From Bacillota bacterium (GTDB lineage: Bacteria; Bacillota; UBA4882; UBA8346), in contig JAAYHS010000079.1 of the NCBI GenBank assembly GCA_012735315.1, forward strand, positions 1 to 53,795: 53,795 nucleotides of DNA, in the 5' to 3' direction. This document shows positions 3,301 to 25,317 of this stretch, piece after piece. A program made the position numbers and the translations under genes. Position 1 is the stretch's first letter. Every line of letters starts with the position of its first letter. The notes below the pieces were generated by a model. It did no database searches and was not told the DNA's origin. It saw only the letters and a program-made list of their open reading frames with translations.

Positions 3301-3659
3301 GACAGCACTTTTCGAACAGCTTCCAAAACCCGTTCGGGTTGGAACGGTTTAACGACAAAATCCTTGGCCCCTGCTTGAATGGCATCGATCACCATGGCCT
3401 GTTGTCCCATTGCGCTGCACATGATGATTTGGGCATTGCTATCCAGTTTGCGGATTTCTTTAACAGCCGTAATCCCATCCATGTCGGGCATGGTAATATC
3501 CATAGTCACCAAATCGGGACGGAGTTCCTTATACTTCTCAACCGCTTTGGCACCATCTTCGGCTTCGCCAACAACTTCATAACCGCCTTTACGCAAAATA
3601 TCCTTAATCATCATGCGCATAAAAGCCGCATCATCGACAACAAGTACTTTGTTACCCAC
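3297..3659 (-). CDS. cheY: Chemotaxis response regulator CheY
   Basis: CheY is a single-domain response regulator that binds the flagellar switch when phosphorylated. The 120-aa product has all receiver landmarks: the acidic pair in VLVVDDAAFMR, the phospho-accepting Asp in LVTMDITMPDMDG (about residue 54), the conserved Ser in IIMCSAMG, and Lys in FVVKPF. It lies directly downstream of fliY, whose CheC-like domain is predicted to dephosphorylate CheY-P, so target and phosphatase are coexpressed. The stop overlaps the fliO start by 4 nt. Confidence 0.96.
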   Translation of the reverse strand: MGNKVLVVDDAAFMRMMIKDILRKGGYEVVGEAEDGAKAVEKYKELRPDLVTMDITMPDMDGITAVKEIRKLDSNAQIIMCSAMGQQAMVIDAIQAGAKDFVVKPFQPERVLEAVRKVLS

Positions 3660-3680
3660 CTGAAATTCCTCCTTTAGGAA

Positions 3681-4883
3681 TTATTGAAGTGTATTTGCTC
3701 TTTCGATTGGGCTGATGATATCGGTAATTTTAATCCCAAAATTTTCGTCAATAACCACTACTTCACCTTTGGCGATCATTTTGCCGTTTACGTAAACATC
3801 CACCGGATCTCCGGCCAGTTTATCAAGTTCAATTATTGAACCGATGCCGAGATCCAAGATGTCTTTGATTTTCATCTTGGTGCCGCCCAGTTCCACGGTT
3901 ACCTGTAAAGGAACGTCCAAAATCAACCCGATGTTTCCGGTTTCTTTAACGTTCTTTCCGTTTCCAATAGGACCAAATTGAGCAGGTTGGATCATCACCG
4001 GCGTCTTAACCTCCGTTCTATAATTTATCGGAGCCGGCGCGGGAGAAGCAGCCGCCGGCGGCGTATCGTAAATCGGTTCCGCCATCGGTGGACTCGGTTG
4101 ATTAGGTTGTGAAAGCGGTTGACTCGGTTCCGGGATCGGTTGCTGATCCGCGGCAACCTGATCAATTCTTTCCTCCGCGACCGGTTCAATCGGCGGAGTA
4201 AAACTTGCTGCCGCAGCAGCGGTGACTTGCGTCTCCGCAATCAATTTCTCCGCCAATTCGATAGCTAACTGATAAGGAATGACCAACATCAGTTCACTAT
4301 CAACCAAACCGTCGATTTGTAATTTAAAAGAAACTACCACCACTTCGCTGTCCAAATCAAGATCGCTGATTATCGGTTCTTCGTTGGCCAAATCAACTAT
4401 CTTAATCCGGGGCGGGTCGACATCGATCCGTTGCCCAAACAAGGTAGACAATGAAGTGGCTGCGTTGCCAACCATTTGATTCATGGATTCCCCGACCGCG
4501 CTCAACTCAATCTGTTCCAAGTTTTGTTTCGGGTTGGAACCATCCTTACCCATCATCAGATCGGCGATTATGGCCGCGTCGGCGATTTTCATGATCAGAA
4601 CGTTGCTTCCCACCAAGCCGGCCTTATAATCCACCTCAACCACCACATAAGGAATCGGGTGTTGTTTCTTAAGTTCTCTTTGAGTAGTCAATACAACAGT
4701 GGGAGTATCGATTACCACCCGTTTATTCAACAATTCCGATAAAGCGGTGGAGGCCGTTCCATAACTAATATTGCCGATCTCCCCGAGCGCGTCCTTTTGC
4801 ATCAGGGATAGCTGCGGAGAATCATCCTCACTCCCTTTGAGTAAAGCATTAATCTCTTCCTGGGTAAGAATCTGTCGCTCCAT
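3681..4883 (-). CDS. fliY: Flagellar motor switch phosphatase FliY (CheC-FliN fusion)
   Basis: FliY is a C-ring protein that also dephosphorylates CheY-P in Firmicutes. The 400-aa product begins with the short [15 protein letters not shown] segment similar to the CheY-binding end of FliM. A CheC-like domain follows, with two phosphatase-type motifs: DALGEIGN and SAVGESMN, each followed by a proline about 20 residues later. Next is a Pro/Gln-rich linker (about residues 230-300) and a C-terminal SpoA/FliN domain ([20 protein letters not shown]). ATG 4883 was chosen because AGAGGA precedes it; a GTG at 4895 overlaps the fliM stop. Confidence 0.95.
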
Positions 4884-15062: not shown

Positions 15063-16401
15063 GAGCCACTGAATCTCCGATCATTTCGATTAAACGGGAG
15101 GTGGTTTCGGCATAAGAAACTTTTTCGTCAATCCGTTGCTTTAAAAAATCATTGATGGTTTGAATCATGGCAATCGCCTTATCAATCCGGGGGTTGCTTC
15201 CCGGAGCGTAGGCGCCGATATTGATTAAATCCTGATTATCCCGGTAAGTCGCCAAGAGATTTCTTATTTCTCCGGCAGCCCGGTTATGCCCCTCCTTGAC
15301 CAATTCAATCATCAAACGGCTGACGCTGGCCAAAATATCGATGGCCGGATAATGGTTTTGATGCGCCAGCTCCCGCGAGAGAACGATATGCCCGTCTAAA
15401 ATACTACGGACCGCGTCGGCGATCGGCTCGTTCATATCGTCTCCTTCAACCAACACCGTATATAATCCGGTGATACTTCCCTGGTCGGAGGTGCCCGATC
15501 TTTCCAATAAACGGGGTAATAACGCGAAAACCGACGGAGTATAACCCCTGGTCGTCGGCGGTTCCCCCACGGCCAATCCTACTTCGCGTTGGGCAATGGC
15601 AAACCGGGTTACCGAATCCATCATCAAAATGACATCTTTTCCTTGATCCCGAAAATACTCGGCAACAGCGGTAGCCACCATTGCGCCCTTAATCCGGACC
15701 AGCGCCGGCTGGTCGGAAGTAGCGACCACCACCACCGAACGGGCGATGCCCTCCGGACCCAGATCCCGCTCTAAAAAATCCCGAACTTCCCGGCCCCGTT
15801 CCCCGATTAAACCGATTACATTGACGTCGGCATCGGTGTTCCGGGCGATCATCCCCAGTAGCGTGCTTTTGCCGACGCCGCTCCCGGCGAAGATGCCCAC
15901 CCTCTGCCCCCGCCCACAGGTTATCAAGGCGTCAATCGCCCTGATTCCCATGGCTAAAGGAGTATTAATCCGCCTGCGGGCGAGAGGATTCGGAGGGGAA
16001 GCCTGCAATGGATAATATTGACCGCTTAAGATCGGACCTTTGCCGTCGATGGGCCGCCCCAGACCGTCTAAAACCCGGCCCAACAACCCCGGGCCCACTT
16101 CTACCCTCAGTTTTTGGCCGGTGGCGATAATTTCACAACCAGGGCTGATCCCGGTGATCTCTCCGAGGGGCATTAGTAAAACGCGGCCCGCTTTAAAACC
16201 GACCACCTCGGCTGAAAGCGGCTCGGAACCATCAGTTACATTGATTAAACAATGCTCGCCCAGATTAACCGCGGGTCCGTCCGCTTCGATAGTCAACCCG
16301 ACAATCTGACTGACCTTGCCGGTCCGTCTGATCGGATCCAATGATTTAATAGCCGCTAAATATTTCGCGGCGCTAAACGGCTGAATTTCAACCTGGTTCA
16401 T
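15055..16401 (-). CDS. fliI: Flagellum-specific ATPase FliI
   Basis: FliI is the hexameric ATPase that energises flagellar protein export. The 448-aa product has a Walker A (FAGSGVGKSTLLGMI, about residue 165), the catalytic block LIGERGREVRDFLERDLG, Walker B (DVILMMDSVTRFAIAQREVG) and the PPTTRGYTPSVFALLPRLLE stretch shared with F1-beta. The N-terminal beta-barrel is intact. ATG 16401 is preferred; a TTG lies one codon upstream. The gene start overlaps the end of fliH. Confidence 0.97.
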   Translation of the reverse strand: MNQVEIQPFSAAKYLAAIKSLDPIRRTGKVSQIVGLTIEADGPAVNLGEHCLINVTDGSEPLSAEVVGFKAGRVLLMPLGEITGISPGCEIIATGQKLRVEVGPGLLGRVLDGLGRPIDGKGPILSGQYYPLQASPPNPLARRRINTPLAMGIRAIDALITCGRGQRVGIFAGSGVGKSTLLGMIARNTDADVNVIGLIGERGREVRDFLERDLGPEGIARSVVVVATSDQPALVRIKGAMVATAVAEYFRDQGKDVILMMDSVTRFAIAQREVGLAVGEPPTTRGYTPSVFALLPRLLERSGTSDQGSITGLYTVLVEGDDMNEPIADAVRSILDGHIVLSRELAHQNHYPAIDILASVSRLMIELVKEGHNRAAGEIRNLLATYRDNQDLINIGAYAPGSNPRIDKAIAMIQTINDFLKQRIDEKVSYAETTSRLIEMIGDSVAHD

Positions 16402-17491
16402 CAACTTGCCCTACCTTTAGGATCTCTTTCATGATTCCTTCCAGTTGCGATTTGATCCTGGCGTCTACTTTTCCGTGTTCGGTTTCAACAAAACAATTCC
16501 CCGGAGGAACCGTTTGATCCGATTTGATTCCGATCGTTTTCGGTTCACTGAAAACCTCTTGTAAAACCGGAAAATTTTCCTGAATCAACCGTTCATCCTC
16601 GGGATTTATCTTGACGGTAATCGAATTAGCCGTAGCAACTTTGCCGAGAGCTTCTTTAACCAAAGACAAGTATTGTTCGGGATGGCTTTGCAACTCGGAA
16701 CCGATAATTTTTTCGGCTATTCCGGATGCCAATTTTAATAGTTCCGCTTCCGAAGAAGTGATGCGCCGGATCCGCTCCGTTTCGGCTTGATTGAGTAGTT
16801 TTAGAGAATCGGCCAGATTGGCCTCCATTTCTTGCATTGCTTTTGTCAAACCTTCTTGATACCCCGCCTCCGAGCCTTGCCGGCGGGCTTCTCCTTTAAG
16901 CTCTTCAGCTTCTTGTTTAGCCTGATTGATAATGTTTTCCACTTCCAGTTCGGCTTGATTGAGGATTTCAGCCGCTTGCCGTTGGGCTTTCTCGAGGATG
17001 TCGGCCGCCTGCGACCCGGCTTCTTCTCTGATCCGTTCCGCTTCGCTCTTTGCTTGTTCCAAGATACCGGCGGCTGTTTCAGCAGCCGAACCGGTGATAC
17101 TCTCGGCTTTTTCTTGCGCTAAACGCGCCATGGTCTCGGCTTCCCGCTTACTTTGATCGATCAACCGTTCGGCTTCAAGATTGATTTGAAAAAGATCAAC
17201 TTCCTGCTCTTCGGCTGCCGGTTCCTTCGGCTCAACTTCATTTTCAATCTCAGCGGGAGACTCCGCGACGGTGTCCTCGATTTCGGCTTCGTTTTCCTCA
17301 GCTTCGTCGCTTGGCAACAGAGCCTCCAATATTTCTTCCAAAGCGGCCGCCGTCTCGGAATCGGGTTCGGTTGCAAGATTCCGTTCCTCATTTTCTTCCC
17401 GGTTATTAACAAAAAAGGCATCCACATCGACCGGATCCAGCCGACACGGATGAGCCTCGACGCAATGCTGGGACTTAATGATTTTAGACAA
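16388..17491 (-). CDS. fliH: Flagellar assembly protein FliH, extended
   Basis: FliH is the peripheral stalk that regulates FliI and docks it to the C-ring. The 367-aa product ends with the conserved FliH domain: GYQEGLTKAMQEMEANLADS, LASGIAEKIIGSEL, SITVKINPEDERLIQ and DARIKSQLEGIMKEIL. It is much longer than usual (about 210-270 aa). The extra part is an acidic segment (about 30-90) and a long Ala/Glu-rich coiled coil (about 100-205) with 11-residue periodicity. TTG 17491 has GGAGG nine bases upstream and overlaps fliG by 8 nt. Confidence 0.93.
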   Translation of the reverse strand: MSKIIKSQHCVEAHPCRLDPVDVDAFFVNNREENEERNLATEPDSETAAALEEILEALLPSDEAEENEAEIEDTVAESPAEIENEVEPKEPAAEEQEVDLFQINLEAERLIDQSKREAETMARLAQEKAESITGSAAETAAGILEQAKSEAERIREEAGSQAADILEKAQRQAAEILNQAELEVENIINQAKQEAEELKGEARRQGSEAGYQEGLTKAMQEMEANLADSLKLLNQAETERIRRITSSEAELLKLASGIAEKIIGSELQSHPEQYLSLVKEALGKVATANSITVKINPEDERLIQENFPVLQEVFSEPKTIGIKSDQTVPPGNCFVETEHGKVDARIKSQLEGIMKEILKVGQVDEPG

Positions 17492-18494
17492 TCAACTCAT
17501 CCTCCTTGCCTCTGGAAATGATGATCTCTCCGGAGTCTTCGAGTTGCCGTATGACATTAACGATCTTCTGCTGGGCTTCCTCAACGTCGCGCAAGCGCAC
17601 CGGTCCCATGTAGCTCATGTCTTCCTTAAGCAATTCCACTGCGCGTTTGGACATATTGCGGAAAATGAGATTTTTCACGTCCTCGCTGGCGGTCTTCATC
17701 GCCATGGCCAAATCTTTAGCGTCGACTTCACGCAAGAACCGTTGGACGGAACGATTGTCAAGCAGCACAATATCTTCGAAGACGAACATCCGCCGTTTAA
17801 TCTCATCGGCAAGTTCCGGATTTTCCTCAGCCAAGGCTTCCAAGATTGTCTTTTCGGTACCGCGATCAACCCGGTTTAAAATAGCGACTATCGACTCAAC
17901 ACCCCCGGCAATTGTGAAATCTTGCATCACAAACGAAGAAAGCTTCTTTTCCAGAATCAATTCCACCTCGCGGAGCACATCCGGAGAGGTCCGATCCATT
18001 GTCGCCACCCGTTTGGCCACCTCTACTTGTTGCAGCGGCGGCAAAGCCGATAAGATTATTCCGGCTTGCTCCGGTGAAAGATAAGCCATCACCAAGGCGA
18101 TGGTTTGAGGGTGTTCATTTTGGATAAAATTAAGCAACTGACTTGGTTCGGTTTTCCGAGCGAAATCAAACGGTCTAACCTGAAGCGAAGCGGTCAATTT
18201 GCCGATGATGTCATGGGCTTTATGTGAACCGAGCGCCTTCTCCAAAATCTCGCGGGCGGAATCGATTCCTCCCGACAAAATATATTCTTGAGCCAAGCAA
18301 ATTTGATAAAACTCCTCTAAAACCTGGTCTTTAATTTCCGCGGGCACCCGGCGGATATTGGCAATCTCCAGACTTAGTTCTTCGATCTCGTCTTCGCGTA
18401 AATTTTTCATAATCGCGGCCGATATTTCGGAACCGAGCGATAATAACAGGATCGCCGCTTTTTGTTTTCCGGTAAGTTCATGTGGTCTTGGCAC
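17484..18494 (-). CDS. fliG: Flagellar motor switch protein FliG
   Basis: FliG links the MS ring to the C-ring and interacts with MotA to generate torque. The 336-aa product has the three FliG domains: an N-terminal part (LTGKQKAAILLLSLGSEISA), the middle EHPQT motif (IQNEHPQTIALVMAYLSPEQ) and the C-terminal charged torque helix (LDNRSVQRFLREVDAKDLAM, RAVELLKEDMSYMGPVRLRD). Length equals the family norm. It lies between fliF and fliH in canonical order. Confidence 0.97.
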   Translation of the reverse strand: MPRPHELTGKQKAAILLLSLGSEISAAIMKNLREDEIEELSLEIANIRRVPAEIKDQVLEEFYQICLAQEYILSGGIDSAREILEKALGSHKAHDIIGKLTASLQVRPFDFARKTEPSQLLNFIQNEHPQTIALVMAYLSPEQAGIILSALPPLQQVEVAKRVATMDRTSPDVLREVELILEKKLSSFVMQDFTIAGGVESIVAILNRVDRGTEKTILEALAEENPELADEIKRRMFVFEDIVLLDNRSVQRFLREVDAKDLAMAMKTASEDVKNLIFRNMSKRAVELLKEDMSYMGPVRLRDVEEAQQKIVNVIRQLEDSGEIIISRGKEDELIV

Positions 18495-18512
18495 AAGAGT
18501 TCACTCCAGTTT

Positions 18513-20078
18513 TTAAGTTTCCTCGGAGAGCCACGCTTTCAATAGAACAGCGACTTCCTTCGGTTTTTCACGGGCATATTTTTCAATCGCCTGTTGACGC
18601 TCATTTCTAGCTCTTTCTTCCGGAGTAAGTTCAATAGCGGCCGCTTCTTCGGCAGGCAATTTATCTTCCACCAAAGTATCGATCTTCGAACCCACGATTA
18701 CACCTTCAGCGGGAAGCTCTTCTCCAAGAAGTTCTTCCGCTCTTCTGGCTTTCGCCGCCGGTGAACTGCGGCGCGCGATAATGGCAATGGTCAGTAATAA
18801 AACCGTGCCTACAAAAGCGGCGATAATCGCATTCCAAGGTATTTCCAGCGGTTCCGGTTCGGGAGGTTTGGAGAATTCGATCGTTTCCACGGTCAGTTGA
18901 TCGCCGCGTTCCTGCATTATCCCTACCGCGGCGGCGACCGTATTATATACTTTTTCTCTGGTTGCCGCCGGCAAGTTGCCGTCGATCCAGACGCCAACCG
19001 TCAACCTTTTAACCTTTCCGGGAGCGGCAACCCGGAACTCTTCCACTTTACTAATCTCATAGTTGGTGGTGCGTTCCGATTTTTCCGCCTTATACTGAGT
19101 TACTCCCGAATCGGTCGCTTTATATTGAGTGATATTGGTATCGGTTCCGGGAACTCCCACACTTGAGCTTCCCGTTCCCTCGTATGTTTCATATTTTTCC
19201 TGTTCGCTCCGGGGGACTCCTTTGTCCGCAAAAGTCTCACTTTTTTGTTCCTGATAATCCAAATCCAAGTCGGCATTAACCCTTACTACCGCTCTGTTGA
19301 ACCCGAAGACCTTGGAAAGCATGCTCTCGACCCGCCGTTGCACCTGATTCTCATATTCATATTTGGCGCTAAAGACATCGGCGATCGAATCCGGACCGGG
19401 TAATTTTCTTCCATCTCTCCCCGGACGAAGCATCGCGGTCAGATCATTGGCATAATTATCAATGATGGTAACGTTTTCCTTCTTAACCCCGGTACTGGCC
19501 GCGACCAGATTGGCGATGGCATCTACCTGGGTATAAGTAAGCGCGCCCGGGTTTCGTAATTGCAATTGGACCGAGACGGTTCCTTCCGGTTTATCGTCGG
19601 CAAATATGTATTCGGTCGAATCGGGCAGATTTAATAAAATTTTAGCATCGAAGATCCCGTCCAACCGCTGCAAGGTCCGGGTTAATTCACCCGCAATCGC
19701 CCGTTGCCGGTTGATTTGATTGGTAAAATCGGTGGCGCTGAAAGAGCCGCGGTCGAAGATCTCCCACCCGACCACACCCCCGCGGGGTATTCCTTGCTGC
19801 AGCAAGTTGGCCCGCACCGAAACCGCGTTCGGAACCTCGATTCCCCCTCCGGCCGAAGTGCGGTAGGGAATCCGCATTTCTTCAAGTTTAGTGATGATTT
19901 CGCTCCGATCCTGCTCGGTAAGGCGGGAATACAACAGTTCGTAACGGGGGGTTCGGGCCCACCGGACCACGAAAAATATCGCTCCCAATACCAACAGCAG
20001 AACCACCACAACGATCCTTCGCCGGGTGGTATCCATCTTGTTCCAAAGATTTTTGATTTGATTTAAAAACTCGTTCAC
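18513..20078 (-). CDS. fliF: Flagellar MS-ring protein FliF
   Basis: FliF forms the MS ring in the inner membrane, the base for flagellar assembly. The 521-aa product has an N-terminal membrane helix (VVVVLLLVLGAIFFVV) and ring-building domains with YELLYSRLTEQDRSEIITKL, FDRGSFSATDFTNQINRQRA and VNADLDLDYQEQKSE. A second membrane helix (IPWNAIIAAFVGTVLLLTIA, about 400-420) precedes the FliG-binding tail (KPKEVAVLLKAWLSE). A 160-nt gap with no recognisable gene separates it from fliE. Confidence 0.97.
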   Translation of the reverse strand: MNEFLNQIKNLWNKMDTTRRRIVVVVLLLVLGAIFFVVRWARTPRYELLYSRLTEQDRSEIITKLEEMRIPYRTSAGGGIEVPNAVSVRANLLQQGIPRGGVVGWEIFDRGSFSATDFTNQINRQRAIAGELTRTLQRLDGIFDAKILLNLPDSTEYIFADDKPEGTVSVQLQLRNPGALTYTQVDAIANLVAASTGVKKENVTIIDNYANDLTAMLRPGRDGRKLPGPDSIADVFSAKYEYENQVQRRVESMLSKVFGFNRAVVRVNADLDLDYQEQKSETFADKGVPRSEQEKYETYEGTGSSSVGVPGTDTNITQYKATDSGVTQYKAEKSERTTNYEISKVEEFRVAAPGKVKRLTVGVWIDGNLPAATREKVYNTVAAAVGIMQERGDQLTVETIEFSKPPEPEPLEIPWNAIIAAFVGTVLLLTIAIIARRSSPAAKARRAEELLGEELPAEGVIVGSKIDTLVEDKLPAEEAAAIELTPEERARNERQQAIEKYAREKPKEVAVLLKAWLSEET

Positions 20079-20241
20079 ATTGACCTCCCAGAGTTCCCGA
20101 CTAACGTACCTCGGCCGCTCATCGCTCGTTTATAAGCTTCTCGAGCTTTACGGTCGCGAGAATTGTTTAAGATAATTCTTAACCATTAGCGGCAAGCTGA
20201 GAAGATGAGTGGCAAAGCGACGCTCAACTCACGCCTTAAAC

Positions 20242-20544
20242 CTAAATCTGAGTCCGCATAATCTCCTGATAGGCTTCGAGCGCCTTATTTCGGAGTTGCA
20301 TGGTAAACTCAAAAGCCAGTCCGGCCTTTTCCGCCATTACCATGGCCTGATGAAGATATTCCAAATTACCGGTGGCCAGTTGAGTGTTGAGATCCGACGC
20401 TTGGATTTGCAGTTTGTTGACTTTATCCAGAGCCTGCCCCAATATTTGTTCGAAGGAAGCGGAGGTTGCCGGATTCTCTCCGAAAGGTTTGGATTCTTTT
20501 TCAAGTCTAATAAATGTTACCGGGCCGATTGGAGTCGTATTCAC
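20242..20544 (-). CDS. fliE: Flagellar hook-basal body protein FliE
   Basis: FliE joins the MS ring to the rod. The 100-aa product ends with the highly conserved FliE segment: LEYLHQAMVMAEKAGLAFEF, TMQLRNKALEAYQEIMRTQI, with the ALDKVNKLQIQASDL helix before it. Length is standard. The gene follows flgC by about 20 nt and precedes fliF, the common Firmicutes order flgB-flgC-fliE-fliF. Confidence 0.95.
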   Translation of the reverse strand: MNTTPIGPVTFIRLEKESKPFGENPATSASFEQILGQALDKVNKLQIQASDLNTQLATGNLEYLHQAMVMAEKAGLAFEFTMQLRNKALEAYQEIMRTQI

Positions 20545-20562
20545 TTTTCAAAGCCTCCCTTT

Positions 20563-20994
20563 CTATGCCCTGCCGATATCTAAGGCGGCGCGATACATGT
20601 CCTTGGCTGAATTAAAGGCGGTAACATTCGCCTCATAAGACCGGCTCGCCGAAATTAGATTGACCATCTCCACCACCGGGTTAATGTCCGGATAAAGCAC
20701 ATATCCGTCCTCGTTGGCGTCGGGATGGGTCGGGTCATAAACCAAACGCGGCGGTTTTTCATCCGTTTTAATCCGGATCACTTTAACTCCGGCCGGGCGC
20801 GTCACCATTCGACCCTCGGCGTTTAGATATTCATCGATCACTTCCATAAACACCGGCACTTTCCGGGTATACGGCCCGCCCTCTTTAGTTCTGGTGGTGT
20901 TGGCGTTGGCGATATTGTTGGAGATCAAGTCCATTCTTAACCGCTCCGCCGTTAAGGCGCTGGCGCTAATATCAAAATTGCGAAATAGTTCCAT
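20563..20994 (-). CDS. flgC: Flagellar basal-body rod protein FlgC
   Basis: FlgC is a proximal rod subunit. The 143-aa product shows the rod/hook N-terminal motif RLRMDLISNNIANANTTRTK, the FlgC-typical GGPYTRKVPVFMEV, and the C-terminal VVEMVNLISASRSYEANVTA and KDMYRAALDIGR. Length fits FlgC (about 135-150 aa). Only a few bases separate it from flgB. Confidence 0.97.
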   Translation of the reverse strand: MELFRNFDISASALTAERLRMDLISNNIANANTTRTKEGGPYTRKVPVFMEVIDEYLNAEGRMVTRPAGVKVIRIKTDEKPPRLVYDPTHPDANEDGYVLYPDINPVVEMVNLISASRSYEANVTAFNSAKDMYRAALDIGRA

Positions 20995-20999
20995 TTAGG

Positions 21000-21404
21000 T
21001 CATCTCCCTTGAACTGCCGATTTTAGTGTGTCCATTCGCTTTTTCCAGGTTTGTGCGACCGCTTGAAAAAAGAGGGTGTTCTGGGCGTCTTGGGCCATTT
21101 CGAACTCAACGTCGATGTTGTTGGTGTCGTAACGGCTCAAGGTTTTGGTCTCCCTCGTAATCTTAATCGGTCGCAAACCCGGCGGAGGATTGGGGATATG
21201 CATCGGATGGGTTCTGACCATTTCCAATTCATCTTTGTTGAACCGGTCGTTCAAAGCGTCGGCAAAATCAATATCCAGCCTTTTATAAAACGGAGTGTTC
21301 ACATTGGCGATGTTTTGGTTGATTAGTTGTTTGCGGAGCATCGAAGCGTCCATGGCGCGTTCCAGCAGTTTCGACGTCCGGTTTTCCGTAAGTTTTTGCC
21401 ACAT
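21000..21404 (-). CDS. flgB: Flagellar basal-body rod protein FlgB
   Basis: FlgB is the proximal rod subunit and the first gene of the operon. The 134-aa product has MDASMLRKQLINQNIANVNT and PFYKRLDIDFADAL, then the linker typical of FlgB (TNNIDVEFEMAQDAQNTLFF) and QAVAQTWKKRMDTLKSAVQG. ATG 21404 has GAGG eight bases upstream; a GTG three codons earlier is in frame. A sigma-D-like promoter lies about 50 nt upstream. Confidence 0.96.
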   Translation of the reverse strand: MWQKLTENRTSKLLERAMDASMLRKQLINQNIANVNTPFYKRLDIDFADALNDRFNKDELEMVRTHPMHIPNPPPGLRPIKITRETKTLSRYDTNNIDVEFEMAQDAQNTLFFQAVAQTWKKRMDTLKSAVQGR

Positions 21405-21456
21405 CGTTCGCACCTCATCCGATCTGTTTTAACGCTTTCAAAAAACCCTATTTCAG

Positions 21457-21689: not shown

Positions 21690-22355
21690 CTACCGTAACC
21701 CATAAGTTTGATTCACATCTTGCACAAAGATGATCCCCTGGCCGGGTTCGTCGATTTTAAGCTCTTCCCTGATGGCGGTGGTAAGCGCCTCGGTCAGCTT
21801 ATGCTCGGCTAAAATCAAAACCATTTCTTTTTCCGGCTCAATCTCCATCGCAAACAACTTACTGGTCTCATGAATGCCGGAACCCCTGGCGTTGATGACG
21901 GTTCCTCCCCTAGCGCCCGCTTTCTTGGCCGCGTCAATTACCAATTCTCCCCTGCCTTTATCGACAATCGTAAAAATTGCGTTGTACATCGTACTTTCCA
22001 CACCTCTTTTTCCTCGATAATCACCGGCTTTACAACTGCTAACTCCGTAAATGTTCCTTACTGAAAGGCGAAAGGCTATGCCGTGATTCGGCTTATCGAA
22101 ATTAAACTCCCGGTTAAGGTCCTCAAGGGCTTCCAAGGCGATTTTTTTCTCGGCGAGCATCAGCACGATTTCTTTCCGGACGTCGGATAAAGCCAACATC
22201 TCCAAGATTCGGCTGTCGACAGTTCCCTTGCCTAATAAAATCGTGCCGCCGCAAATCCCGCTTCGCTTGGCGATTCTTACTACTTTACTTCCCAAACCGA
22301 AATTAACGATTACATATATTAATTCAAGTTCTTTGACTTCAACGCTGCTGTCCAT
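21690..22355 (-). CDS. Tandem PII-like protein (two GlnB-like domains)
   Basis: The 221-aa product consists of two PII-like (ferredoxin-like) domains. Domain 1 (about 8-95) has IAKRSGICGGTILLGKGTVD, EIVLMLAEKK and GIAFRLSVRNIYGV. Domain 2 (about 120-218) has KAGARGGTVINARGSGIH, EMVLILAEHK and GQGIIFVQDVNQTYGL. The pattern G-G-T-I/V-x-x-x-[GR]-G-[TS]-G/V is shared with the 116-aa neighbour. A classical GlnB T-loop with the uridylylated Tyr is not seen, so nitrogen signalling is unlikely. ATG 22355 was chosen (GGAGG upstream); it overlaps the DUF1538 gene by 17 nt. Likely role: regulatory subunit of the adjacent transporters, as inference. Confidence 0.85.
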   Translation of the reverse strand: MDSSVEVKELELIYVIVNFGLGSKVVRIAKRSGICGGTILLGKGTVDSRILEMLALSDVRKEIVLMLAEKKIALEALEDLNREFNFDKPNHGIAFRLSVRNIYGVSSCKAGDYRGKRGVESTMYNAIFTIVDKGRGELVIDAAKKAGARGGTVINARGSGIHETSKLFAMEIEPEKEMVLILAEHKLTEALTTAIREELKIDEPGQGIIFVQDVNQTYGLR

Positions 22356-23862
22356 GCTGTTCCAGTCCTCCTTTTTTGGTCTTTGCTTTGAAAACAAGAC
22401 CCAGTATTTCTAAAGCGATAATCGGGGTCATGGCCACCATGGCAATCATTCCGAATCCATCCGCCAAAACATTGGCCCCTTCAATAGCATCGGCGACGCC
22501 GTGAGCAAAAGCCAAGATAAAGGTGGCGGTCATCGGACCGGAAGCGACTCCTCCCGAGTCGAAGGCGATACCCACGAACAGCTTGGGAGCATAATAACTC
22601 ATAATGATCGAGATTAGGAAGCCAGGTAAAAGATAATGCCATAATTGGATTTCAGAAACAAGTATTCTTAACATGGACAACGCTACGGCAAAACCGACCC
22701 CCAACGATAACGCGAGTAATACCAGGCTTCTTTTGACAGAACCGCTGGTTACTTCCTCGATTTGACGCGTTAACACGTAGACCGCCGGTTCGGCTAAAAT
22801 GGTAACCAAACCTAAAATAAATCCGATAATCAGAACCAAAGAATTATTTCCCAAAGATGCCAGGGTATGCCCGGCAACGCTTCCCACATCCATAAAACCG
22901 GCATTCACTCCGGTTAAAAACATAATCAATCCGATCAGGGTGAAACCCAATCCGATGATGACTTTGCGAAAAGCTCTTTTTGACAAATGAAACAATATTT
23001 TTTGCGATACCAAGAAAATTAGTATTAACGGAAGCAACGCTAAAATTGCTTCGAATGCCACCTGCGGCGCTTTTTTTATAAAAGGCCCGATAATCGTGGT
23101 GGTGTTGATGATATCATATTCAAGGGCGGCGCTGATTTGGTCGCTTGTTGAAAAGATGCTCCTAAGCATCACCGGGATAATCGCGCCGCAGGAAGCGACT
23201 CCCACCAGACCGAAACTGTCTTTTTCAGAGGCTTTACTGTCTTTCTTAAGCATGGAAACGCCCAAGGCCAAAGCCAACATGAACGGAACGGTCAAAGCGC
23301 CGGTGGTCGCGCCCGAAGCGTCGAAAGCGATCGCTAAAAATTCCGGCGACGTAAACAAACCGAGTATGGAAATTAAGCCGTATAAAATCGACATTACTAT
23401 GTAAAGCGGAATATTGTAAACTATTCTTACCAAACCGAAGGAAAGCAATGCTCCAATGCCCAGCGACACTATGACAACGATCTCGGCTTTGGAGATCAGA
23501 CCCGAAGTGACCAGGCCCACTTGCCCGGCTAAGATATGCAAATCAGGCTCGGCGACCGATATAAAAAAGCCGAGGATTAACCCAGCGACGCCAACGATCC
23601 AAATTTTATTGGTTTTGGTTAGGGTTTCCCCCATGTAATTACCGATTGAACTAACGCCGATATCCACTCCTAACAAAAAAATGGTCAAACCTAAGATGAT
23701 TAGCAACGCGCCGATAAGGAACCTGATAATTAGAGGAGTTTCGAAAGGGGTCAAGGTGAAGTTCAAGAATAATACGATAATTGTGATCGGAAGCACCGCA
23801 TATAGAACCTCTTTAAATTTGGAAATCAAGACATTAAAAAAAACTAGTCGCTCATTGTTCAT
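22339..23862 (-). CDS. DUF1538 membrane protein, two-domain (putative cation/proton antiporter)
   Basis: The 507-aa product is a polytopic membrane protein made of two homologous DUF1538 halves. Each half has a G-rich helix (LLGVDIGVSSIGNYMGETL; FLTGVNAGFMDVGSVAGHTL), an acidic helix end (FFISVAEPDLHIL; LVTILAEPAVYVL) and the signature AFDASGATTGALTVPFML or AFDSGGVASGPMTATFIL. Members of this family in Halomonas (UmpAB) were reported, as I recall, to work as a two-component Na+(Li+,K+)/H+ antiporter. Ion specificity here is unknown. Its start overlaps the upstream PII-like gene by 11 nt and its end overlaps the tandem PII-like gene, so all are cotranslated. Confidence 0.9.
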   Translation of the reverse strand: MNNERLVFFNVLISKFKEVLYAVLPITIIVLFLNFTLTPFETPLIIRFLIGALLIILGLTIFLLGVDIGVSSIGNYMGETLTKTNKIWIVGVAGLILGFFISVAEPDLHILAGQVGLVTSGLISKAEIVVIVSLGIGALLSFGLVRIVYNIPLYIVMSILYGLISILGLFTSPEFLAIAFDASGATTGALTVPFMLALALGVSMLKKDSKASEKDSFGLVGVASCGAIIPVMLRSIFSTSDQISAALEYDIINTTTIIGPFIKKAPQVAFEAILALLPLILIFLVSQKILFHLSKRAFRKVIIGLGFTLIGLIMFLTGVNAGFMDVGSVAGHTLASLGNNSLVLIIGFILGLVTILAEPAVYVLTRQIEEVTSGSVKRSLVLLALSLGVGFAVALSMLRILVSEIQLWHYLLPGFLISIIMSYYAPKLFVGIAFDSGGVASGPMTATFILAFAHGVADAIEGANVLADGFGMIAMVAMTPIIALEILGLVFKAKTKKGGLEQHGQQR

Positions 23863-24202
23863 CTGCTGAATGCCCCATTCCTAACATGGTTTCCCGATGA
23901 TGTAGACCAAGAATATCGAGCACCGGTATGGTGAAAAGGATACCCGTCCCGGGATCTCTCAGCCTCCCGGCATTTACCAAAGCCTCAATTATCGGATCTT
24001 TCTTATCTTCGGGAGTGAGAATAAAGATAATTTCTTTTGAGGATTCAATTTGCAAATTAAAAAACTTTTTAAACTCATTTTCACCGGTTCCACGTCCGTA
24101 AAAGATCGTGGTCCCAAGGGCGCCGGCTTTTTTGGCCTCTTCCACGAGCCGGTCGGCTTTTCCTCTCTCCACCACGGCAAAAATGGCAATATTTCGCATC
24201 AC
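23852..24202 (-). CDS. PII-like protein (single domain)
   Basis: The 116-aa product is a single PII-like domain: FAVVERGKADRLVEEAKKAG, ALGTTIFYGRGTGENEF, KEIIFILTPEDKKDPIIEAL and the C-terminal GTGILFTIPVLDILGL. It shares the arrangement A-G-x-x-G-T-x-x-x-G-[RK]-G-T with the two domains encoded downstream. It has no obvious Tyr-containing T-loop. It lies between the single-domain and double-domain DUF1538 genes with an 11-nt overlap into the latter. Coupling to transport is inferred from this gene fusion-like arrangement. Confidence 0.86.
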   Translation of the reverse strand: MMRNIAIFAVVERGKADRLVEEAKKAGALGTTIFYGRGTGENEFKKFFNLQIESSKEIIFILTPEDKKDPIIEALVNAGRLRDPGTGILFTIPVLDILGLHHRETMLGMGHSADEQ

Positions 24203-24236
24203 GAAGCGCTCCTTTCAAATTGTGTAGGCTAGCTGT

Positions 24237-24923
24237 CTAGATCCTAACTAAGATACCAAAGAGTAAAACCGAAATAACTGTTCCCAACGAGGTTAGACCC
24301 ACCAAACCAAATCCATTCAATAACGGATCGCTGCTGGCAATGATTTTGGAAAGCCCGATGGCGATCGCCATATTGATCGGAATATTAACCGGCCCCGTGG
24401 TCGCGCTGGCTGAGTCGAAAGCGATACCCACGATTCCCTCGGGAGCAAAATGAGTCAAGATAATTACGGCCACCAAAAGAGGAATGACGACTTTGGCCGT
24501 AGAAATCTGGAAGAGGATTTTCATGATACCCAACGACATTCCGACGCCGAAACCGATGGCTACTACTTGGATCAGCACATTTCTCGGCAAAGCGCCAATC
24601 GTGAGCTCTTCAGCCTCCATAGCCAGGGCTTGGAGCGCCGGTTCGGGGAGAGTAGACAAATACCCTATGAGAAAACCAATTACAATGATTAACAGTTTAT
24701 TATCCAACACCGTAAGGTTTGAACCTACGGATTCTCCCATAGGGATCAAGCATAAGGAAATCCCTTTCAGGAAGAAGAAAAGGCCGGCCAGACTCAAAAA
24801 GTAACCTCCGAAGAATGAATATGGTTTCTGAAGAGGGCTCTTCAAAATTATCAATTGAAATAAAAGCAAACCAAAAATAATGGGACTCAATGACTTAAAA
24901 GCGCCGAACAAATCCTTGAACAA
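24237..24923 (-). CDS. DUF1538 membrane protein, single-domain
   Basis: The 228-aa product is a membrane protein with one DUF1538 unit: GISLCLIPMGESVGSNLTVL, a helix ending in YLSTLPEPALQALAMEAEEL, and the signature AFDSASATTGPVNIPINM. It is half the length of its 507-aa neighbour, as expected if the two form a heteromeric pair. The start is TTG at 24923 with GGAGG ten bases upstream. It is the first gene of the four-gene operon and is preceded by a leader of about 300 nt from a good promoter. Confidence 0.88.
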   Translation of the reverse strand: MFKDLFGAFKSLSPIIFGLLLFQLIILKSPLQKPYSFFGGYFLSLAGLFFFLKGISLCLIPMGESVGSNLTVLDNKLLIIVIGFLIGYLSTLPEPALQALAMEAEELTIGALPRNVLIQVVAIGFGVGMSLGIMKILFQISTAKVVIPLLVAVIILTHFAPEGIVGIAFDSASATTGPVNIPINMAIAIGLSKIIASSDPLLNGFGLVGLTSLGTVISVLLFGILVRI

Positions 24924-24929
24924 TATGAT

Positions 24930-25230
24930 GATTCCTCCTTATATCCTTCATACTTTATAAGTTAATTAATTGACACTACTAGCCGGTTAATCGACGCGAT
25001 CAAGCCTTTTAAAACGTAGTAACCGGTAGATAAAGACGGAATTTTTCGATTCAGATTGTTACCTGTAGATTGGCGGATCCCTGCGGTAGCCGTTATTTAA
25101 CGAATCATTCGGGTTAAAAGACAAAAACCAAAAACCAAAATGACGCTTAAAGAAAAAGGACGGTCTGACCCTCAGAAAAACTTTTGGTAATAGTCTTGTC
25201 ATCAAGCCATGATTCAAGGGCAAAATTGTT
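24930..25230 (-). promoter_or_regulatory. Long 5' leader of the DUF1538/PII operon, structured
   Basis: This roughly 300-nt stretch holds no ORF in either strand that I can support. Transcribed from the promoter at 25265-25237 it would be an unusually long untranslated leader. Near its 3' end CTACCGGTTA (minus strand, about 25029-25020) can pair with TAACCGGCTAG (about 24990-24980) in a 10-bp stem with one bulge. ACTAC within the same segment can instead pair with GTAGT nearer the ribosome binding site, giving two alternative folds. I could not match it to a riboswitch class I know. Confidence 0.4.
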
Positions 25231-25236
25231 TATTAT

Positions 25237-25265
25237 ATTATAACTAAAAGATTAACTAATTCCAA
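25237..25265 (-). promoter_or_regulatory. Putative promoter of the DUF1538/PII operon
   Basis: On the minus strand TTGGAA (25265-25260), a 17-nt spacer and a perfect TATAAT (25242-25237) form a good housekeeping promoter between holA and the DUF1538 operon. Confidence 0.6.
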
Positions 25266-25317
25266 GACCGCAGAACAGCAAACTTTTATTACCATCTTTA
25301 CCGGAAACTAATTAACC

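Follow-up and report, generated by a model that had tools for sequence, protein, structure and literature searches.

Transport by DUF1538 proteins has been characterised in one paper, on UmpAB of Halomonas zhaodongensis, a pair of such proteins with measured Na+(Li+,K+)/H+ antiport that requires both subunits, which are reported as a heterodimer (PMC5484666). Here we describe an isolated minus-strand operon in a 53,795-nucleotide window from a Bacillota bacterium (contig JAAYHS010000079.1 of assembly GCA_012735315.1, analysed over its whole length), in which four genes, D1-P1-D2-P2, encode one, one, two and two domains, respectively, of DUF1538 (PF07556) and PII (PF00543). We consider it probable that they make up two modules, each of them a self-contained monovalent cation/proton antiporter with a PII-like gate of its own.

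The window proteins share with UmpAB the Pfam family, seven predicted transmembrane (TM) segments per unit and paired units, which in UmpAB are required together. They differ in that the UmpAB units are separate genes and in their distance, as D1 and D2 score 95-151 bits against the NCBIfam models for UmpA and UmpB (NF041627 and NF041628; cut-offs, 490 and 500 bits) and are related but not equivalogs. As in AmtB-GlnK and SbtA-SbtB, where the PII-family protein binds directly, a membrane transporter is linked genetically to, or would be regulated by, a PII-family protein, and the PII fold found here matches GlnK1 and SbtB. Those transporters, however, are an ammonium channel and a bicarbonate symporter, both trimers, whereas the window would encode probable cation/H+ antiporters built around an antiparallel dimer, accompanied by tandem PII forms with an altered T-loop and without the canonical ATP-site residues. 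The dual-topology families DUF606, SMR and CrcB/Fluc likewise combine a near-neutral single gene with oppositely biased gene pairs, and a series of single, paired and fused forms has been described for DUF606 (PMC3962082), but these families are unrelated in sequence, whereas the DUF1538 unit is larger, has dedicated PII partners, and occurs here in single and fused form side by side. Finally, PstA/DarA, which bind cyclic di-AMP (c-di-AMP), offer a PII-like fold in Gram-positives and a link of c-di-AMP to K+ physiology, but P1 and P2 matched PF00543 as their sole Pfam family.

DUF1538 genes and their PII-like neighbours

The original prediction had read the four genes as DUF1538 and PII-like proteins in a 1-1-2-2 pattern, and Pfam searches bear this out. 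PF07556 matched D1 at 200.8 bits (profile positions 1-211 of 211) and D2 at 435 bits across two stretches, and PF00543 (cut-off, 25 bits) matched P1 at 38.1 bits and the second half of P2 at 46.6 bits, while the first half of P2 fell below the cut-off and was detected by an iterative profile built in this analysis (115 bits). PF07556 was the sole Pfam family matched by D1 and D2, which did not match Na_H_Exchanger (PF00999). The AlphaFold2 model of P2 consists of two PII-like domains (predicted local distance difference test [pLDDT] 78), for which Foldseek returned GlnK1, GlnB and SbtB with a probability of 1.0; chance similarity as the source of the PII assignment is ruled out by the profile matches and the fold. 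The model of D2 (pLDDT 83; predicted template modelling score, 0.83) shows in each half a helix interrupted where AFD..TG lies and a short one past the AEP motif, and a structural relative of DUF1538 in the PDB was found neither by sequence nor by Foldseek with this model. The sequence signatures that had been predicted, AFD...TGP and GRGT, do occur once in the single-unit and twice in the tandem proteins, but their literal letters vary, with AFD..TTGP in D1, AFD..TTGA and AFD..ASGP in the first and second units of D2 (D2a and D2b), GRGT in P1, and GKGT and ARGS in the two halves of P2 (P2a and P2b).

The two halves of P2 have not been conserved alike. The second retains ARGSGIHE...IEPEKE and the B-loop G-x-G, both of which are lost from the first; the first half is degenerate, a feature that the original prediction did not contain. 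In the alignment, the strongest conservation of the second PII half lies in RGSGIHETSKLF.M.IEPEKE, and this stretch overlaps the least-confident segment of the AlphaFold2 model, residues 175-186, at the place of the PII T-loop. Second and lone PII units carry a strictly conserved motif at the T-loop position, within a segment whose predicted structure is flexible. In canonical PII proteins, the lysine of the B-loop and the arginines at the C terminus belong to the ATP site. These GlnB/GlnK residues were sought in the P1/P2 alignment and are absent, the canonical GDGKIF being replaced by PGQGIIF or PGTGILF and P2 ending in YGLR. The nucleotide sensing that had been suggested finds no support in these residues.

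Loci were gathered from Bacillota genomes through DUF1538 alone, and removal of duplicates and incomplete loci left 184 complete loci; 138 of 398 sampled genomes had a DUF1538 match. PII units were directly adjacent to DUF1538 in 183 of these loci, mostly overlapping (median gap, -11 nt; 97% within 60 nt). Since the pairing recurs in this way among loci collected by DUF1538 alone, chance adjacency is excluded. A genome scan with D2 only gave 80 loci, all in Bacillota, and in every one a tandem DUF1538 gene was followed by a tandem PII gene. Writing D and P for separate genes and DD and PP for fused tandem genes, the layouts were DD PP (111 loci), D D P (22, plus two double copies), D P (17), D D PP (16), D D P P (7) and DD P P (3), together with three expanded forms, one locus in which P-P accompanies a D-D-P fusion, one DD lacking PII and this window, whose 1-1-2-2 stack occurs nowhere else among the 184 loci. 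All 17 single-unit systems have a single P partner, so that tandem P never accompanies single D. Strict matching of D and P units as a rule is ruled out by the 22 D D P systems and the two double copies; the match is a tendency. The D D P order is also found on two alphaproteobacterial plasmids, on one of which the first D is incomplete. The original prediction had named three findings that would overturn it, namely PII-like proteins without a PII fold, tandem halves unrelated to the single-domain proteins and a neighbourhood not conserved in relatives. Each was looked for, and the fold, profile searches of the halves and the census gave the opposite result in all three cases.

Several loci are of interest in themselves. 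The sole complete tandem DUF1538 gene without an adjoining PII unit is at positions 3337-4836 of locus L227. At L219 (5973-8494), two DUF1538 units and one PII-like unit are apparently fused in a single 618-aa frame that follows a tandem PII gene. Expanded forms are seen in L044, L027, L026 and L245 (DD PP PP, DD PP DD PP, an extra PP upstream, and DD PP P, respectively). In L102 (genome G004, contig C107), the tandem DUF1538 gene is broken by a frameshift or stops next to an intact tandem PII gene, possibly as a pseudogene or an assembly error. In L153, L154 and L155, which belong to one family, a large open reading frame (ORF) of similar size lies 5' of the single D-P pair, with PD40 repeats in L153, where hutP and mraZ/mraW genes lie downstream of the pair.

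The UmpAB paper mentions neither PII nor fusion or tandem forms (PMC5484666), and PII partners of DUF1538 are not discussed in those papers of the open-access library searched that mention DUF1538, although subscription papers may differ. The only one of them containing both terms uses them in unrelated ways, the letters PII sitting in a motif string (PMC7221264), and the Na+-riboswitch paper mentions neither. On plasmids, both genes are already labelled in public annotation, so the adjacency is visible to anyone looking.

Charge bias and descent of the units

Charge bias was counted as lysine plus arginine (K+R) under a topology model of seven crossings per DUF1538 unit and a re-entrant AEP segment, by which D1 has seven TM segments. 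First units had a bias of +5.0 (0 to 11; n = 91), second units of -8.2 (-14 to -2; n = 91) and single units of +0.4 (-2 to 3; n = 18), and the window proteins follow the same pattern, with +1 for D1, +7 for D2a and -11 for D2b. Other topologies (three models, with six and eight crossings) did not separate the groups comparably. Published K+R biases range from -2 to +1 for dual-topology proteins and are about 6-7 in magnitude for antiparallel pairs (PMC3962082). Under the seven-crossing model, the DUF1538 units thus show near-zero bias in single genes and opposite bias in pairs, as in dual-topology and antiparallel families, an observation not made in the original prediction. Judging from charge and parity, the two units of D2 most likely form a fused antiparallel pair, and D1 is most likely a homodimer of oppositely inserted copies, that is, a predicted dual-topology protein.

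A Glu-Pro pair, an Asp and an Arg/Lys are kept in nearly every unit of all three clades described below, E, P, D and G being fully or almost invariant. The likely ion and proton site of each unit would comprise the Glu-Pro at the end of TM3, the Asp of the broken helix (AFD..TG) and the Arg/Lys of TM4. The residues concerned are E94, D170 and K135 in D1 and, in the two units of D2, E105/E358, D181/D435 and R146/R399.

The DUF1538 tree resolves cleanly into three clades, one each for first, second and single units, and needs no more changes than the minimum. D2a falls among first units and D2b among second units, while D1 groups with units of L109 (77% identity) and L108, from genomes of the same class. 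The PII tree, built from few columns, still separates a single-unit clade that includes P1, mirroring the single-D clade. These placements put D1/P1 in an old single-unit lineage and D2/P2 in the paired-unit lineages, so that the operon joins two anciently separate modules. The original prediction had proposed matched duplication within the operon, which is contradicted by this separation of D1/P1 and D2/P2 into anciently distinct subfamilies. Distances between D units and between P units correlate (0.79-0.83 across 63 four-unit systems), but all unit pairs do so, indicating joint descent rather than specific pairing.

Candidate gating mechanism and alternatives

Based on the data presented above, PII-gated monovalent cation/proton antiporters are the best reading of D1/D2 with P1/P2, and the PII-regulated antiporter originally proposed remains their most economical function. 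In the first module, D1, almost without charge bias, would insert both ways and form an antiparallel homodimer gated by an oligomer of P1. In the second, two diverged units with fixed opposite orientations would be fused in one chain, D2, gated by the tandem PII protein, in which the second half carries the conserved T-loop-like motif and the first is degenerate. Modelled on GlnK on AmtB and SbtB on SbtA, the PII-like protein may use its conserved flexible loop to dock on the cytoplasmic face, a cytoplasmic signal switching transport.

A second pairing of PII with an exchanger was found in the same genome. PF00543 occurs there in three places, namely P1, P2 and one further gene, which adjoins a Na_H_Exchanger gene of a family unrelated to DUF1538, another point beyond the original prediction. 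In the lineage of this third gene, a Na_H_Exchanger neighbour was present in 30 of 30 fetched loci across Bacillota, its own included, and the two genes would seem to form a second PII-antiporter system. A profile comparison of the PII lineages next to the two antiporter families gave 50% probability, a weak test of their being sisters. In four genomes (L293, L294, L295 and L296; three of one family), a c-di-AMP riboswitch is followed by a Na_H_Exchanger gene and a PII-like gene. In genome G207, a c-di-AMP riboswitch (L212/L258, 4571-4698, minus strand) lies immediately 5' of a DUF1538 operon of the split D D P P form, and the other such riboswitch of that genome comes before a Na_H_Exchanger/TrkA_C gene (L298). 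We regard the link of this riboswitch to DUF1538 as a lead, not a rule.

Several points weigh against PII-gated antiport. UmpAB is, as noted, a distant relative, and a vector carrying its two genes, with no PII gene of their own, gave activity in the E. coli laboratory strain KNabc (PMC5484666); a dedicated PII protein is therefore not needed for transport itself. The common systems with two D units and one P unit show that D and P need not match in number. In the L219 fusion, the PII part scores below the Pfam cut-off, and G207 is the only one of 80 DUF1538-bearing genomes scanned in which a DUF1538 operon directly follows a c-di-AMP riboswitch. The membrane faces were set by a seven-TM model picked partly for fit, with the charge pattern already known. 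For the window proteins themselves, we infer the physical complex of D and P, gating, oligomeric states, signal and substrate.

D1 might instead insert one way only and form parallel homo-oligomers, such as trimers on a PII trimer. Transporter trimers do suit PII trimers (PMC10710835), and near-zero bias is no proof of dual insertion, but first and second units are clearly opposite in bias with single units between, the same series as in DUF606 (PMC3962082), and we hold parallel assembly to be unlikely while giving it real weight. A rather smaller likelihood attaches to the PII-like proteins acting mainly as obligate structural or assembly subunits instead of ligand-dependent gates. Such a role would fit their near-universal adjacency (mostly 1:1 or 2:2), the loss of canonical nucleotide-site residues, the degenerate first PII half and the one D-D-P fusion; set against it are the activity of UmpAB without its own PII gene and the strictly conserved motif in the predicted flexible T-loop segment, which is typical of a switching loop.

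It is improbable that the substrate is something other than Na+ or K+, for instance an organic solute or one linked to nitrogen, PII then relaying carbon/nitrogen status in its usual role. The measured antiport of UmpAB and the conserved E/D/R set argue against this, as do the PII-like lineage beside Na_H_Exchanger genes, the c-di-AMP riboswitch links and the surroundings of the single-unit systems, among which no metabolic neighbour was consistently conserved and nitrogen transport genes were not found. On the other side, a DUF1538 assay exists for one system only, and a distant one, PF00543 is named for nitrogen regulation, and the PDB yielded no structural relative for the D2 model. Stepwise duplication within the operon, as the origin of all three D and all three P units, might be supposed from the same families recurring in the same order in one operon, but has next to no likelihood, as the trees put D1/P1 with single-unit systems from elsewhere and D2/P2 with fused ones, the branches of the DUF1538 tree contradict it, and the stack occurs in no other of the 184 loci.

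Beyond the two gated antiporter modules, we tentatively suggest, at somewhat less than even confidence, that two or more unrelated families of monovalent cation/proton antiporters (DUF1538 and the cation/proton antiporter [CPA] type) have PII-like proteins as dedicated gates, which respond to an ionic or K+-linked signal and not to nitrogen status, and that this operon holds the dual-topology homodimer and fused antiparallel stages of one transporter side by side, each with its own gate. A PII-like protein lies almost without exception beside cation antiporters of a family for whose model the PDB offers no matching fold, and another PII lineage lies beside CPA-type exchangers. If the proposal is true, PII signalling reaches Na+/K+ and pH homeostasis across Bacillota, through transporters that are probably antiparallel dimers. 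DUF1538 would gain a testable mechanism and, with its single, paired and fused forms, offers a clean evolutionary series for dual-topology transporters.

Gene layout and flanking sequence

The four genes lie where the original prediction had put them, with two starts revised (Table 1). P1 most likely starts at ATG 24199, with GTG 24202 as an alternative, and is one residue shorter than the 116 aa proposed. P2 most likely starts at ATG 22355 and not at TTG 22397; GGAGG lies about 10 nt 5' of this ATG, and P2 from this start overlaps D2 by 17 bp. P1-D2 and D2-P2 are the overlapping pairs, as had been predicted for the last three genes, and D1 and P1 are spaced by about 35 bp. The start codon of D1 is TTG, preceded by AGGAGG, and the units of D2 span residues 22-236 and 275-490.

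Table 1. Coordinates of the operon, its upstream region and the second PII-exchanger gene pair
Feature	Location	Strand	Evidence or remark
D1, single-unit DUF1538 protein, 228 aa	24237..24923	-	PF07556, 2.1e-59
P1, single-unit PII-like protein, 115 aa	23852..24199	-	PF00543, 2e-9
D2, tandem DUF1538 protein, 507 aa	22339..23862	-	PF07556, twice
P2, tandem PII-like protein, 221 aa	21690..22355	-	PF00543, 4.7e-12
Intergenic region upstream of operon	24924..25317	-	one sigma-70-like match; no Rfam family
Third PF00543 protein, 123 aa	L262:1456-1827 (own genome, contig C141)		directly upstream of the 397-aa Na_H_Exchanger
Na_H_Exchanger gene, 397 aa	L262:214-1407 (own genome, contig C141)		PF00999-type neighbour of the third PF00543 gene

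A search for Rfam families 5' of the operon in the window, including Na+, Li+ and c-di-AMP riboswitches, found none. A sigma-70-like match, TTGGAA-17-TATAAT, lies upstream of D1 at 25265-25237, the number of such matches not being above chance. By inspection, the ORFs downstream of the operon (16388-21413) are fliG-, fliF-, fliE-, flgC- and flgB-like, and those upstream are holA-, comEC- and comEA-like, the holA-like ORF flanking the operon.

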